NCBI GenBank assembly: GCA_003162695.1 | Contig: PMML01000058.1 | Coordinates: forward strand, 11,816-73,749 | Source of the DNA: Ignavibacteriota bacterium | GTDB lineage: Bacteria > Bacteroidota > Ignavibacteria > UBA10030 | DNA length: 61,934 nucleotides | Reading direction: 5' to 3' | Part shown: positions 13,822 through 32,788 of the stretch, piece after piece | How positions within the stretch are numbered: position 1 is the stretch's first letter | How the letters are laid out: each line of letters begins with the position of its first letter | The notes under the pieces: generated by a model | Seen by the model: only the letters and a program-made list of their open reading frames with translations | Told to the model about the DNA's origin: nothing | Databases searched by the model: none | Program-made: the position numbers and the translations under genes

Positions 13822-13848
13822 ATAATATTTTAATAATAATTTAGTAAT
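13822..13848 (+). promoter_or_regulatory. Putative PhoB-type box: three NTAAY half-sites, 11-bp period
   Basis: ATAAT at 13822, ATAAT at 13833, GTAAT at 13844; TAGACT at 13859, 15 nt from the start of the last half-site. Confidence 0.55.
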
Positions 13849-13919: not shown

Positions 13920-15794
13920 ATGATCTCTATTGTACATTCAAAACAAAATCAACAACTTGCACACGAACTCAGTCTCTGGCTTGAAGAAGGCGGATATACA
14001 ACGGGAGGACTATCGTTCGGTGAAGAACATCAGCCGACAATTATTGCTTCGCTTGCGGTTTCCCAAATGGTCATTCTTATCGTTTCTCCGGAGCTCAATG
14101 CAGAGGCGGAAGCGTTTCAATTGCACATCGAAACGATAAAACGGCTTCATATTCCGATCATACCGCTATTGCTCAATTTGTCCGATGCAGAATTTCGCCT
14201 TCAAGAAACTCCATGGACTTCTCTCGTCGGGCGCGGATCGACCATGGAAATACCCAAAGAAGGAACGGAATCCATTCTCTCACGTGTTCTTGCGGCTCTG
14301 AAAGCTCTCGGCGTACAACCGAATGAAAAACCGGATAAAGACCGTATTCGAGCATTGCGTCAATTTACGGGACGGGATGCTGCGGGAGGAACGGGTGTTA
14401 TCGGAAAACGGAAAAAAACAAAAAGACGATATCTTTTTGCAGCATTAATTGTAATTCTTTGTTGTGTGAGTGCCTATCAAGGAATTCAATCTTATCTCCT
14501 TAAAAAACAACAAGCAATGCCACCGCGTATTGTGCTTCGTCTTCATGGTTCCAATACAATCGGAGCGTCGCTTGCGCCTGCACTTATCGAACGGTTTACG
14601 GCAATCAAAGGAGGAATGAATTACTTCTGGCACAACGGCGCAAATGTACTGGAAAAAAAGCTTGTGTACCGCCTGCCGCAAGATTCAACCCGCTATGCTG
14701 TCGAACTCTTCACGCATGGTTCGGCCTATGCATTTATCGATCTTTCCGACAGCTCAGCGGATATAGGTATGGCATCGCGTTCGGTCAAACCTGAGGAAGA
14801 AGATTTTCTCAAACGAGTTAAAATGGGCGATATGGGTTCATCCGGCTGCGAACATATTATCGGTCTCGACGGTGTTGCAGTCATAGTCCATCCCGCAAAT
14901 CCTATCCAGTCACTTACGATCGAACAGATTGCTGGAATATTCGGCGGAAAAATAACACTTTGGTCGCAGGTCGGAGGGGAACAGAAGCCGATTCTCTTAT
15001 TCGCGCGTGAAAAAACTTCCGGGACTTTCGATACCTTTGAAAACCTTGTCTTAAAGCGGTACGGTTTTAAGGATGTGGATACTTCGGCAAAACGTTTTGA
15101 GGACAGCAATGAACTTTCAAAACGAGTCTCTTCGATGGAAAACGGGATCGGTTTTATCGGCTTGCCGTACGTGAATGATGCAAAAGCAATCGCCGTAGCG
15201 GACGGGGATGCGCCGCCGGTCTACGCCAATGCCCTTACGATTGCCCGGGAAGATTATCCGCTCGCACGGCGTTTGTTTCTCTATATCCCATCGAATCCGG
15301 CAAGTTCGTGGACCCGCGATTTTGTCCGGTTCACATTGTCCGATGAAGGGCAGGAAATTGTGAAACGCATCGGATTTGTGGATATACGCATTACAACAGA
15401 AAGTAATGTCGTTCTGTCCGCTTCGGCACCGGCGGATTATACCGCTCTTACAACATCGTCAAAGCGGCTCTCAATGACATTTCGGTTTAAAACAGGAAGC
15501 GAGTCTCTCGATAATAAAGCGCTTCAGGATATCGACCGTATCGTCAAGTATGAACGCCAGAACGGAATACCGCAATTGATATTAATTGGTTTTACGGATA
15601 ATGAAGGGGATACAAAGCATCTTAAGGAAATATCCCTTCATCACGCCCATGTCGTTGCCGATGAATTTCATGCACGAGGCCTCAATGTTGACGAACAAAA
15701 TATTCACGGTTTCGGAACGGCACTGCCTCTGACAACCAATGCGACCCCCGAAGGAAGACAGAAGAATCGTCGTGTTGAAGTGTGGATGAAGTAG
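13920..15794 (+). CDS. TIR-like domain - TM - PstS-like phosphate-binding domain - OmpA-like peptidoglycan-binding protein
   Basis: N-terminus ISIVHSKQNQQLAHELSLWLEEGGY...MVILIVSPE...IPIIPLLL (TIR-like); TM RRYLFAALIVILCCVSAY; PBP region RLHGSNTIGASLAPALIERF; C-terminal OmpA (GFTDNEGD...RQKNRRVEVWMK). Confidence 0.78.
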   Translation: MISIVHSKQNQQLAHELSLWLEEGGYTTGGLSFGEEHQPTIIASLAVSQMVILIVSPELNAEAEAFQLHIETIKRLHIPIIPLLLNLSDAEFRLQETPWTSLVGRGSTMEIPKEGTESILSRVLAALKALGVQPNEKPDKDRIRALRQFTGRDAAGGTGVIGKRKKTKRRYLFAALIVILCCVSAYQGIQSYLLKKQQAMPPRIVLRLHGSNTIGASLAPALIERFTAIKGGMNYFWHNGANVLEKKLVYRLPQDSTRYAVELFTHGSAYAFIDLSDSSADIGMASRSVKPEEEDFLKRVKMGDMGSSGCEHIIGLDGVAVIVHPANPIQSLTIEQIAGIFGGKITLWSQVGGEQKPILLFAREKTSGTFDTFENLVLKRYGFKDVDTSAKRFEDSNELSKRVSSMENGIGFIGLPYVNDAKAIAVADGDAPPVYANALTIAREDYPLARRLFLYIPSNPASSWTRDFVRFTLSDEGQEIVKRIGFVDIRITTESNVVLSASAPADYTALTTSSKRLSMTFRFKTGSESLDNKALQDIDRIVKYERQNGIPQLILIGFTDNEGDTKHLKEISLHHAHVVADEFHARGLNVDEQNIHGFGTALPLTTNATPEGRQKNRRVEVWMK

Positions 15795-15795
15795 C

Positions 15796-16704
15796 TTAAG
15801 CGCGTTTCTGAACGTTGAGCGATTCGGATAGAGAATGCTGCCCGATTTTTTTTCTTCGGGCAACATTTTCGTATTCATAAGCAAGCGTTTGCAACCGTTC
15901 ATTTAGGGGATCATTCCGCAATTCAATATGTATCTCTTCCAGCAAGGCTGTAATATGTTCATAGGAAGCGGATTCAAGATCGTGACCTGTCTCTTCGCTT
16001 TGCGCTGCGGCCGATTTTGCCGCAGCCCGCTCAATGTTTAGCCGGTATTCTAAAAGGGCTTCATTGAGAGGATCCCGGACGAGAGCCTCGGCTAAAATTG
16101 CCTTTGCCGAATCGAAATTTCCTTTTGCAACGGCTTCTTTTATTTTTATCAAGAGAGGAGAAATGGAAATCGCTGATTCCGAAGGCTTAGACTGATGTAC
16201 GGCTGAATTATTGGCTGCTGCGGTTTCGGCATCGGTAATTTCTTTGTTGAGAACTCCGAGGAGCGAATGGCCGGGGAAAAGAATGCCTGCCCGATTGAGT
16301 TCGTTTCGAGCCCGTTCATATCGGCCCAGATTGAGGGAATTTTGTGCGGAATCGATCAGTTGAAGAAATTTTTCCTCCAGAGCTTGTTTCCGGGCATCAT
16401 GTCCGGTTTTTGAATTATTCTTGTTCTCAGAAGTCTTGCGGGTCTTTTCTTTGCTCTGGAGATCCCGGAGGATCAGAATGAAGATCCGGTCGAGCGACTC
16501 AATGTCGGAATGATTGAGCACACCGGACTTTTGAAATGATTCTAAACGCCATAAATACATGGGAACGAATATGCTCGGCGATTCTATGGACTGTAATTCT
16601 TTGATATCATTCTTTGCATCGGAAAAAGTTCCGGACTTTATGTGTGTTTGGATCGAAGCCATCAATGCGCGGACACGGCTATGAAGTTCAGGTAATGAGG
16701 TCAT
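15796..16704 (-). CDS. Hypothetical TPR/coiled-coil-like protein
   Basis: Helical repeats such as GNFDSAKAILAEALVRDPLNEALLEYRLNIERA. Confidence 0.65.
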   Translation of the reverse strand: MTSLPELHSRVRALMASIQTHIKSGTFSDAKNDIKELQSIESPSIFVPMYLWRLESFQKSGVLNHSDIESLDRIFILILRDLQSKEKTRKTSENKNNSKTGHDARKQALEEKFLQLIDSAQNSLNLGRYERARNELNRAGILFPGHSLLGVLNKEITDAETAAANNSAVHQSKPSESAISISPLLIKIKEAVAKGNFDSAKAILAEALVRDPLNEALLEYRLNIERAAAKSAAAQSEETGHDLESASYEHITALLEEIHIELRNDPLNERLQTLAYEYENVARRKKIGQHSLSESLNVQKRA

Positions 16705-17088
16705 GAGGAAGCCTTATTGTTTTAAAAATGACGATTAATTCTCTCTTCATAAAACTCATTTCTCTGAGAATAATCAATCTCTTTTCTGTAAAGAAAATGT
16801 TAAGAAAAAGAACTCGTATAAAATTCTAATATTTAACTGATTCTTAATCTCACGGCATTATTCATCTCTTTGCTCATGAAAGAATATGTTCGATTGTGTT
16901 TTATCCTTTTTATTCTCACGCTTCATGTGTTTTATTTTTTTATAACCAGAAATACCTGCTTCTGTTTTAGGCATGGGCGCATATGCGGTATAGAAATAAC
17001 TCTGAGAGAGTAATACGTGGAGAGCATAATATTCAAACACGGATCTCATCGCTCGAAAGATGCCGTCGATCCTGTCTCCAGCACTTTC

Positions 17089-18913: not shown

Positions 18914-20467
18914 TTAGTCTTGATCAAAATTTATTTTTTTGTGAAACGCCTGCTCAAACAATTCTTTTTTACGTTCCGCTCCCCATATTTCCATTTCAAT
19001 ATTTTTAGATTTACGATGCAGGAGATGGAACCGTAAATGATCGCCGTATTTACGGCATTCGATGCCTCTGATGACGGCAGAGTGCGTACGATCCAGGCCG
19101 TCTGCAATGCGAAGAATAGCGGCAAGTTTTATAACAACATTTTGCTCTTCTGAAGAAAGCATCTGGAATTGTTCATGCTTCAGCTTTGGATGGCTTTTTC
19201 TGTGGTAGCGTGCTATGTTGGCGATGATCTCTTTTTCATTTTCCGTAAAACCCGGGAGTTCTGCATTGCGAATTAAATAATACGAATGCCGGTGGTGCTG
19301 CGCATGAGAAATGAACAAACCGGTTTCATGCAAGAGCGCCGCTGCTTCCAGATATTCTTTTTCACGATCCGTGAAATGGTGAAGGTAGTTTGTTTTTTCG
19401 AATATTTCGAGCGCAAGTTTGGAGACATGTTTGGCATGGCCGTATTCCACATCGAAAGTTTCTGCGAGACGGATAATATTATTCATGCGAATGTCATGGA
19501 GATAATTGGATGTTTTCAACGAAAATACTTTTCCTATCGAATCGAAGAGTATTCCTTCTCTTAAGGCGGATTCCGACACAACCATCTCTTCAATGGATAA
19601 TTCCAAAAATGTCTGCTCAAGAATAATGGCCCCCGCTGCAATTATATCGGCGCGCGAGACATCCAAACCGTCGATGTTTTTACGTTCGGACAATGTCCGT
19701 GCGGAAACGATGCGATCGACAGTAGCGAACAGTTCGTCTTTTGTAAAGCTGTAATTATTGATCGAACTGCCTTCGTCATGATCTTTGGCGCTGCGTATAA
19801 TTCTTGCGAGTGAATTAATGGTTCCCGAGCTTCCTACGACAGCATGGTATTGATATTTATCGATGTCCCGGACAATCGGACTCAGTGTTCCTTTTACGTA
19901 TTTCCGGCACTCTTTGAGATTCCGAGACGAAAATGATCCGCCGGGGAAAAATCGCTGGGTCAGCCGCACGGCGCCGAGTTTCAAGCTGTTGCTGAAAAGG
20001 ACATTTTGTTTTAATCCGATGATATATTCCGTACTTCCCCCGCCGATATCGATACACAGCGCTTTTTTCTTGAACATCGGCAGGGCCTGGAGAATGCCGA
20101 GATAAATCAATCGTGCCTCTTCGGTACCGGCTACAACTTCGATTTTAATTTTTGCTTCGGATTTTGCACGGCGGATAAATTCATTTTTATTTAATGCCTC
20201 GCGGATGGCGCTTGTTCCGACGGCACGAACAGGCGCATTGAAGATGTCTGCAATCATTTTCATTCTTTTAAGGGCACGTATGCCCCGGTTCATTGCAGAA
20301 GGGGTCAGGTATTTCATATCGGTCGACCCGGAACCAAGCCTCACAATATCCTTTTCGCGGTCAAGTATGCGATATTGCCCGGTCGACATGACCTTTGCAA
20401 CAATGAGATGAAACGAATTTGTTCCGACGTCGATTGCTGCGAGCGTTTGCGGTTGTTGACTATTCAT
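18914..20467 (-). CDS. ppx: Ppx/GppA family exopolyphosphatase with C-terminal HD-like domain
   Basis: AAIDVGTNSFHLIVAKV, CIDIGGGSTEYIIG, VGSSGTINSLARI; C-terminal HETGLFISHAQHHRHSYYLI. Confidence 0.93.
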   Translation of the reverse strand: MNSQQPQTLAAIDVGTNSFHLIVAKVMSTGQYRILDREKDIVRLGSGSTDMKYLTPSAMNRGIRALKRMKMIADIFNAPVRAVGTSAIREALNKNEFIRRAKSEAKIKIEVVAGTEEARLIYLGILQALPMFKKKALCIDIGGGSTEYIIGLKQNVLFSNSLKLGAVRLTQRFFPGGSFSSRNLKECRKYVKGTLSPIVRDIDKYQYHAVVGSSGTINSLARIIRSAKDHDEGSSINNYSFTKDELFATVDRIVSARTLSERKNIDGLDVSRADIIAAGAIILEQTFLELSIEEMVVSESALREGILFDSIGKVFSLKTSNYLHDIRMNNIIRLAETFDVEYGHAKHVSKLALEIFEKTNYLHHFTDREKEYLEAAALLHETGLFISHAQHHRHSYYLIRNAELPGFTENEKEIIANIARYHRKSHPKLKHEQFQMLSSEEQNVVIKLAAILRIADGLDRTHSAVIRGIECRKYGDHLRFHLLHRKSKNIEMEIWGAERKKELFEQAFHKKINFDQD

Positions 20468-21194
20468 CTTCCAGTATGCCCAGGATGCCTTGCTTCAAAT
20501 CACGGTTTATTTCTTCGAAGTTCTTCGATGCATCGATAGTTTGAAAACCAAACTCTTTCGTCATTTTATCGAATTCTTTTAAAATGCGTTTCTGATATTC
20601 AACAAAACTGTCGTAAAAATCGCCGCCCAGTCTCATGTCCATGCCCGATTCCCAGTAGTCCATTCCTTCGCCGGAAAGTTCTTCCCAATACCGTTTTTGC
20701 AGAGTCTGACTGTTGATAACCCTTGGAATTAAATCTTCGACCCCTATGCGCATATAAAAAACAGCATCGGGATTGAGTGCAAAACCAAACACTTTTCGTA
20801 TCCAATGACGGTTTGCGCCGCGGACAGCAGATCGTGCAAATGCAGTATAAATATACCGGTCGGCAAGTACAATAAAACCGGAACGGAGCGCCGGAATAAT
20901 TTCATGTTCAAGACGGTCGGCAAAATCCGCCGCATACAAAAGGCTGAATGTATTGACATTCAGCGTATGTCCGGATTTTGCCTCGTCGATTGCCTTGCCC
21001 ATAAGAGGCGAACGCGTCCATCCCGTCGTAACGACGCCGAATCCTTTTACTTCGAGCCATTTTTTTAGATCGTCAATCTGCGTAGACCGTCCGACGCCGT
21101 CTGTTCCTTCAACAACAATAAGCTTTCCTGATAAATCTTCAGTTTCAACATAGGGTAATCCAAATCCGTAAAAATGCCTTTTCTTAAGCGACAT
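20460..21194 (-). CDS. Thymidylate-kinase-like P-loop protein, copy 1 (Walker A Lys replaced by Arg)
   Basis: GKLIVVEGTDGVGRSTQIDDLKKWL, ADRYIYTAFARSAVRG; probable start MSLKKRHF within ORF 20460..21239. Confidence 0.85.
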   Translation of the reverse strand: MSLKKRHFYGFGLPYVETEDLSGKLIVVEGTDGVGRSTQIDDLKKWLEVKGFGVVTTGWTRSPLMGKAIDEAKSGHTLNVNTFSLLYAADFADRLEHEIIPALRSGFIVLADRYIYTAFARSAVRGANRHWIRKVFGFALNPDAVFYMRIGVEDLIPRVINSQTLQKRYWEELSGEGMDYWESGMDMRLGGDFYDSFVEYQKRILKEFDKMTKEFGFQTIDASKNFEEINRDLKQGILGILEDE

Positions 21195-21897
21195 AAATAT
21201 TCTCTTTCTTTTGAAGAAATGGCGCCGGTTTGTAGGCATTTAGTTTCTGACGCACGATTTCGCGAATTATCGCTTGCTGTTTTTGAATTGACTGTGTTGC
21301 GTCAACGACCGTTAATCCGTATTCAGATGAAATAGCATTATATTCTTCAAGGATTTTCGATTGAAAGATGCGGTAGCTTTCTTTCGGATCGTCGCTTAAT
21401 CCGAGATCCATTCCAGCTTCGTGAAATTTAAGATCAATGCGTCCGTTTAAAATTCTTTTCAATGAAATCTCGATAGGTACTCGGAAATAAAGTGCGATAT
21501 CGGGTTTTACTGCAAATCCGTATATGTTGCGCACCCATTCGCGATGTACACCGCGGACGACATCGCGGGCGAATGCCGTAAAGATATAACGATCTGCGCA
21601 CACAATCATACCTGCTTTGAGCGGCGCAATGATAAGATGTGCAAGGCGGTCGGCAAAATCTGTTGCGTGTAAAATGCTGAAAGTTGTGGGCGTTAATAGA
21701 TTTTTCTTTTTGCCGTGTTTTATCGTCTCGTTAACAAGAGCAGAGGAGTTCCATTCCGTGAAAAATACCCGGTAGTGAGCGTCGAGCAGCCATTTTTGAA
21801 GCAGCTGGAGCTGCGTCGATTTCCCGGAACCGTCGATTCCTTCCACGATAATCAGTTTTCCGGGATACGGATGGTTTTGTTCGAACAGTCTTGACAT
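21184..21897 (-). CDS. Thymidylate-kinase-like P-loop protein, copy 2 (canonical Walker A)
   Basis: GKLIIVEGIDGSGKSTQLQLLQKWL, ADRYIFTAFARDVVRG; probable start MSRLFEQ within ORF 21184..21948. Confidence 0.87.
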   Translation of the reverse strand: MSRLFEQNHPYPGKLIIVEGIDGSGKSTQLQLLQKWLLDAHYRVFFTEWNSSALVNETIKHGKKKNLLTPTTFSILHATDFADRLAHLIIAPLKAGMIVCADRYIFTAFARDVVRGVHREWVRNIYGFAVKPDIALYFRVPIEISLKRILNGRIDLKFHEAGMDLGLSDDPKESYRIFQSKILEEYNAISSEYGLTVVDATQSIQKQQAIIREIVRQKLNAYKPAPFLQKKENIYVA

Positions 21898-21908
21898 GAG
21901 TATATCCT

Positions 21909-22409
21909 TTATCCTATGTCTCTTAAAAATCTCGGCGGCAGGTGCCATAGAAGCCTGCCATGTTTTCTCGACGGAATGGTTTCTGTTTCAATACAGCACA
22001 AGGCGCCCTTTTTAAATTCTATGATGTCGCCGGAATTACCGAGCAGAGCCGATGCAATAAATCCGATATCTGGTCCATGGCCGACAATTAAGAGGGATTG
22101 CAGATCCTTGTATTTCGCAAGGTAGGTCATTACATTTTTCATTGAACTGTTCGGCAGCAAATATTTACATATCTCCAGCCGATGTTCTGCACCTATTGCT
22201 TTTGCCATTATCACGGCAGTCTCATATGCACGTTTGAGCGGGCTTGCCAATATAATGTCAATGGGCGGCAGGATAAGTGCGGCACCTTTTGCCGCTTTTG
22301 CCATCTTTTTAATTCCTTCTTCCGTAAGCGGACGATCATCATTCGGGAAACTGATCGATCCGCGGGGAACCGCTATGGCATGTCGTAATAAGTAAATCTG
22401 CATAAACAC
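21909..22409 (-). CDS. sixA: SixA-like phosphohistidine phosphatase (histidine phosphatase family)
   Basis: IYLLRHAIAVPRGS...RPLTEEGIKKM...ASPLKRAYETA...LLIVGHGPDIG. Confidence 0.9.
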   Translation of the reverse strand: MFMQIYLLRHAIAVPRGSISFPNDDRPLTEEGIKKMAKAAKGAALILPPIDIILASPLKRAYETAVIMAKAIGAEHRLEICKYLLPNSSMKNVMTYLAKYKDLQSLLIVGHGPDIGFIASALLGNSGDIIEFKKGALCCIETETIPSRKHGRLLWHLPPRFLRDIG

Positions 22410-22467
22410 TTTCTCAAAAGCTGTTTTCTATAGTACAAATTAATGATCCGTGATTGCGAACCTTAAG

Positions 22468-22494
22468 GTTAAGAAAAAGTTAATTTTATGTTAA
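22468..22494 (-). promoter_or_regulatory. Putative PhoB-type box: three TTAAC half-sites, 11-bp period
   Basis: Plus-strand GTTAA at 22468, 22479 and 22490, upstream of sixA-tmk-tmk-ppx. Confidence 0.65.
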
Positions 22495-22661
22495 GCCGTA
22501 AACGATCCTTCGAAGAGCCGTTCGGGCGGTACCTTTTAGAAGTTAATGACGACCATAAAATTTACTTTTTAAAATTCATAAAAAGAGTGTAATGTGTAGA
22601 TGATATCAAGGTAATGATTTACTCAGTCGGGTTGTTGTTTATTTCCACTATACAAAGGAAA

Positions 22662-32324: not shown

Positions 32325-32788
32325 GAGACTGATGTTAGATTGTTGCAAAAATAAATTCCGCAATGAGAGCGATACAACCGGACTGATACTTTGTCATCAA
32401 CATGGGAATTCTGCAGAACTTCGGCCGGCCAAATGCATGGAATTCTGATTTCACTTTCAATCAAATCAAACGTGGAATAGTCAGAACCATTTTAAGGGCT
32501 ATAGATCTGCCGTATTTGGCTATCAGTTCGGGAAGAGAGATACAGCCAATGATACAACCGCGTAGGTGAGAGATGTTCGTCGCAAGCTGAGTGCAGCCGT
32601 TTATTCAGCAACTGACACTCCATATACCTCAAAGCTCGTCTGGTCACGATTTTACCGTTCATGGCTTTGATGCTTCAAGTGGTTCTATCGTATCTAAACT
32701 CAGTTAATAACTTTCAACTCTCTCGATAAAGAGCGGATAAATTTCTTAACCGATTCTTAATATTCAAGCATTGGAAGCGCAGAATAAA

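Follow-up and report, generated by a model that had tools for sequence, protein, structure and literature searches.

The closest described relatives of the protein studied here bear the NCBI product name 'Phosphate ABC transporter substrate-binding/OmpA family protein' (PBP_like_2 + OmpA), and combine a transmembrane (TM) helix or signal peptide with a PstS-type domain and an OmpA domain. The PstS proteins of the TIGR02136 branch (C. perfringens 4q8r/4gd5 and V. cholerae 1twy) share the fold of the PstS-type domain, together with its MASR and R-x3-SGT motifs, but serve as free or lipid-anchored transport partners. We analyzed a gene in a window of 61,934 nucleotides from an Ignavibacteriota bacterium, on a contig of 76.8 kb in a 98.7%-complete genome. 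Its product is mostly 39–46% identical to members of the family, but carries a TIR-like N-terminus found in no relative examined; its phosphate-binding protein (PBP) domain, unlike PstS, is fused into a longer chain, and no PstCAB genes lie alongside. The frame is open throughout without a stop, and GGAG is found about 8 nt 5' of the ATG. The features of the gene are as follows.

13920–15794, + strand: gene for the 624-aa TIR-TM-PBP-OmpA protein (ORF with an ATG start)
13920–14309, + strand: TIR-like domain, residues 1 to about 130 (Pfam, AF2, Foldseek, and TIR profile)
14403–14429, + strand: basic stretch GKRKKTKRR, residues 162–170 (positive-inside signal)
14430–14486, + strand: single predicted TM helix, residues 171–189 (strongest hydrophobic stretch of the protein)
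14532–15389, + strand: PstS-type phosphate-binding domain, residues about 205–490 (Pfam, TIGR02136, and AF2)
15483–15770, + strand: OmpA-like domain, residues 522–617 (Pfam and AF2)

The preliminary description of this locus had proposed this domain order, a single TM helix, and a PBP-OmpA fusion of a kind already known. Pfam and AF2 analyses of the ORF agreed with the order, residues 171–189 with the single helix, and the family named above with the known fusion. Because the basic stretch directly precedes the hydrophobic segment, an N-in/C-out topology is predicted, which would place the N-terminus in the cytoplasm. The end of the gene (15794) almost abuts a convergent TPR-repeat gene (15796–16704, − strand).

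In the putative periplasmic part, the protein matched Pfam PBP_like_2 at residues 271–476 (E 3.5e-24) and NCBIfam TIGR02136 (PstS branch; E 2.4e-49), and the AF2 model of residues 159–624 had a pLDDT of 93.4 and a pTM of 0.86. The closest solved folds to the core were phosphate-binding proteins, with 4q8r and 4gd5 the best by both sequence and fold; the 4gd5 entry is titled as having bound phosphate. The motifs GSNT (210–213), HGS (266–268), MASR (284–287), R363, and SGT (367–369) were recognized, and each of the 13 site or motif positions tested holds the residue present in at least 22 of 24 relatives. The residues T213, S268, R363, S367, G368, and T369, as well as MASR, are all kept; by analogy with E. 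coli PstS, these positions would form the phosphate site. These data agree with the earlier proposal of a periplasmic phosphate-type PBP, suggesting phosphate as the probable ligand. The OmpA domain matched its Pfam profile at residues 522–617 (E 1.9e-10; 41.4 bits versus a cut-off of 27.2), and the assignment of the PBP and OmpA parts is secure at the level of profiles and predicted structure. In OmpA domains, an Asp and an Arg presumably hold the peptide stem. Asp560 is kept, and the second ligand residue is His575, where 22 of 24 relatives have Arg; this replacement may weaken or alter the hold on the wall. The OmpA profile and fold are supported, and the peptidoglycan anchoring proposed earlier is weakened by the same replacement.

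The N-terminus was compared with TIR domains by profile and by structure prediction. TIR_2 was the sole plausible Pfam family, with a match at residues 3–103 in the whole protein (E 0.0084); on the N-terminus alone, the match (E 5e-4, 21 bits) stayed below the cut-off of 28 bits. An independent TIR profile, made from relatives' TIR domains (30 in all), gave 17.2 bits; the highest score among 2,000 shuffles was 8.8 bits. The TIR part alone had no match in the PDB by sequence. As the preliminary description had suggested, an AlphaFold model of this part was made, and it folded as a TIR domain with a pLDDT of 78.8; it may lean toward that fold and is not fully independent, because the input alignment was made up of TIR domains, with 25 taken from relatives. 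A combined full-length alignment misplaced the TIR rows onto the PBP domain and was left out. The PDB structures that Foldseek ranked highest for the model included the SPARTA TIR, TRIF, TIR-STING, and RPS4, with a TM score of up to 0.65 (RPS4), but with an E of only about 1e-3 and with AdiA, PurE, and MurR nearly as good. Though weak at the sequence level, the TIR match clearly exceeds shuffles, and we read the N-terminus as a cytoplasmic domain of probable TIR fold.

The TM-PBP-OmpA core occurs in several phyla with differing cytoplasmic ends. Over residues about 200–624, 23 of 24 aligned relatives are 39–44% identical to the window protein and one (L039) is 34% identical; tblastn segments reach 46%. 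Ten relatives were searched with Pfam, and the heads of the remainder were sorted by motif and length, as listed here.

Ser/Thr kinase head, TM, and core: L071, L072, L080, L106, and L188 (Pkinase E 1e-34 to 1e-49 in L071, L080, and L106 by Pfam)
Receiver and DUF4388 head: L088, L090, L104, and L189 (Response_reg and DUF4388 by Pfam in L088 and L090)
DUF4388-like head without a receiver: L091 (sequence similarity only)
Roadblock head: L069 (weak Robl_LC7 match by Pfam)
Zn-ribbon-like head: at least 10 relatives (by inspection)
Helical-domain head: Psychromonas, Sinimarinibacterium, and Lysobacterales (by inspection)
Signal peptide only before the core: most Pseudomonas (by inspection)

The Pfam-verified kinase-headed (L071, L080, and L106) and receiver-DUF4388-headed (L088 and L090) relatives resemble the window protein in having a cytoplasmic signaling module, a TM helix, and the same periplasmic core, but hold a kinase or receiver in place of the TIR, and their cores are about 40–46% identical. 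No description of a kinase-PBP-OmpA fusion was found in the literature searched. A tree of 25 cores was a poorly resolved radiation. The kinase label requires three changes on this tree, so that kinase heads may have been acquired repeatedly, but the well-supported branches do not force this. The window protein and one kinase-headed relative clustered at 90/79, below the support threshold. In two Zn-ribbon-headed cases (L114:2733-5687 and L116:2714-5722), a tubulin-like gene (PF13809) lies directly upstream of the PBP-OmpA gene. OmpA-family proteins have been described as adjoining FtsZ-like-1 genes and have been linked to an FtsZ-like membrane system (Makarova and Koonin 2010, PMC2875224). 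PF13809 probably corresponds to their FtsZ-like-1 family, and no tubulin-like partner gene was found in the genome of the window protein.

Among the relatives examined, the TIR head is present only in the window protein, and none was found among the 84 full ORFs scanned. The architecture search proposed in the preliminary description likewise yielded no second TIR-headed protein: there was no orthologue with a TIR in 31 genomes of the family of the window organism, and no TIR-headed version in samples of 391 genomes of its class, 396 genomes of its phylum (five core matches, including the protein itself), and 395 genomes of the phylum of the Desulfuromonadaceae relative, or in viral contigs. 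The sole other core in the class sample (L192:2-2128) has a charged coiled-coil N-terminus that is truncated where the contig ends, and its phosphate site is degenerate. A literature search, made largely without subscription papers, found no TIR-PBP-OmpA protein. The architecture is real, and its TIR head is new as far as searched, on a PBP-OmpA chassis that is already known.

The promoter had been described as carrying 11-bp-phased boxes (13822–13848). The following repeats were compared.

13829–13848, + strand: TTTAATAATAATTTAGTAAT, the 11-bp-phased repeat claimed upstream of the TIR gene, not supported as a Pho box
22463–22495, − strand: Pho-box-like CTTAAC repeats with 11-bp spacing, upstream of the SixA-like/thymidylate-kinase-like/Ppx cluster
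16788–16804, − strand: Pho-box-like CTTAAC repeats with 11-bp spacing, upstream of the TPR gene
32745–32761, + strand: Pho-box-like CTTAAC repeats with 11-bp spacing, upstream of gene 32771

A TTTAATA-N4-TTTAGTA repeat is present at 13829–13846, but it does not fit the CTTAAC-N5-CTTAAC boxes that occur at other sites of the window. The best match of this promoter to the local box had five mismatches, the commonest value among shuffles, and a Pho box at 13822–13848 was rejected since it scored no better than shuffled promoters. Pho control of the TIR gene is not supported, because its promoter lacks CTTAAC boxes. Pho-box-like CTTAAC repeats with 11-bp spacing were also seen upstream of a glycosyltransferase gene in L177 (1501–1527, − strand). 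To the right of the TIR gene lie genes for Ppx/GppA, a SixA-like protein, two thymidylate-kinase-like proteins, phosphoesterases, and a PhoB/PhoR-like pair, named by inspection except for the thymidylate-kinase-like pair. The two members of that pair are adjacent (20460–21948, − strand), between the SixA-like and Ppx/GppA genes. No transport gene adjoins the TIR gene, and no RNA families were found near it.

What the N-terminus is and does was weighed against two other readings. That it is a generic Rossmann/flavodoxin-like domain, as the sub-threshold TIR_2 match and the closeness of AdiA, PurE, and MurR to the TIRs at a Foldseek E of about 1e-3 would permit, is highly improbable, since no other Pfam family is plausible, the independent TIR profile stands well above shuffles, and the strand-helix order and SP-helix segment agree with those of TIR domains. 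It is somewhat less improbable, but still distinctly so, that Glu71 or another acid is catalytic, which would make the protein an NAD+ hydrolase or cyclase gated by phosphate. The short pAgo TIR (SPARTA) structures were the best fold matches, and Glu71 lies, like the region of His69, within the helix predicted by AF2 at 57–75, two residues from the expected place. However, unlike other bacterial TIR_2 domains, whose predicted fold and weak profile match it shares, the window protein has degenerate motif residues: the profile alignment sets His69 in the catalytic Glu column, followed by an ungapped helix, with Glu71 two residues further on, and W-x-x-x-E, with the usual Trp and Asp, is missing. 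The TIR part also matched no PADLOC defense model; a defense system was rejected as a reading, the sole PADLOC match being MotB-like, through the OmpA domain. The displaced Glu makes NADase activity doubtful, so the offset noted in the preliminary description was right in substance, and the TIR-fold domain has probably lost this activity. The same description had foreseen a cytoplasmic effector or scaffold; relatives with signaling heads at the same place back this idea, whereas its enzymatic form is disfavored by His69.

For the whole protein, we lean slightly toward a cell-wall-anchored receptor for phosphate or another anion that passes its ligand state to a non-enzymatic, self-associating TIR. 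It would be an inner-membrane receptor, N-in/C-out, whose periplasmic PstS-type domain closes around phosphate or a similar anion and whose OmpA domain anchors it in the cell wall. The altered state would be relayed via the single TM helix to the TIR-like domain, which would most likely self-associate as a scaffold rather than act as an NADase. The protein would then represent a TIR-headed form within a widespread family of PBP-OmpA proteins with varied cytoplasmic output modules. The domain order, folds, core-family membership, module swapping among relatives, and phosphate-site residues are seen in sequence comparisons or predicted models; the topology, phosphate as the ligand, the signaling step and its direction, and the oligomerization of the TIR are inferred. 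The varied heads on a common core are most simply read as a receptor with exchangeable outputs, and the relatives with a kinase, receiver and DUF4388, roadblock, or zinc ribbon at the same position give strong context to a receptor or scaffold. Counting against it are the single TIR-headed member known here, the TIR_2 match below the Pfam cut-off, the loss of the OmpA ligand Arg, the lack of an adjoining transport gene, and a promoter without the local Pho-like box; there is also no TIR partner in sight, as the genome yielded no second convincing TIR_2 protein. An unlikely alternative is a structural tether linking inner membrane, periplasm, and cell wall, in which the PBP fold serves as spacer or scavenger while the TIR docks a cytoplasmic partner, and no signal passes. 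It would suit the 55 of 84 full ORFs, mostly from Pseudomonas, in which the core is preceded by nothing but a signal peptide or TM, and the Zn-ribbon versions directly after tubulin-like genes, given the published FtsZ-like membrane system with which OmpA proteins were linked (PMC2875224); however, the phosphate site is fully kept, and a pure tether does not readily account for the clear kinases or receiver modules of several relatives.

Beyond the wall-anchored receptor favored above, it is a tentative and rather doubtful proposal that the protein works as a bacterial counterpart of Toll-like receptors, in which phosphate binding by the wall-anchored periplasmic domain would make the TIRs cluster by way of the single TM helix; the family as a whole would exchange TIR, kinase, receiver, and adaptor heads. 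The likeness is one of working only (one TM helix, an outer ligand domain, and an inner TIR); the outer domain is unrelated, the TIR is at the opposite end of the chain, and the architecture carries no evidence of common descent. If true, one periplasmic phosphate-sensing chassis would have been repeatedly combined with different cytoplasmic outputs, the kinase-headed members would offer a direct route to what orphan PBP-OmpA proteins sense, and the window protein would be a bacterial example in which a ligand controls TIR clustering from the other side of a membrane.
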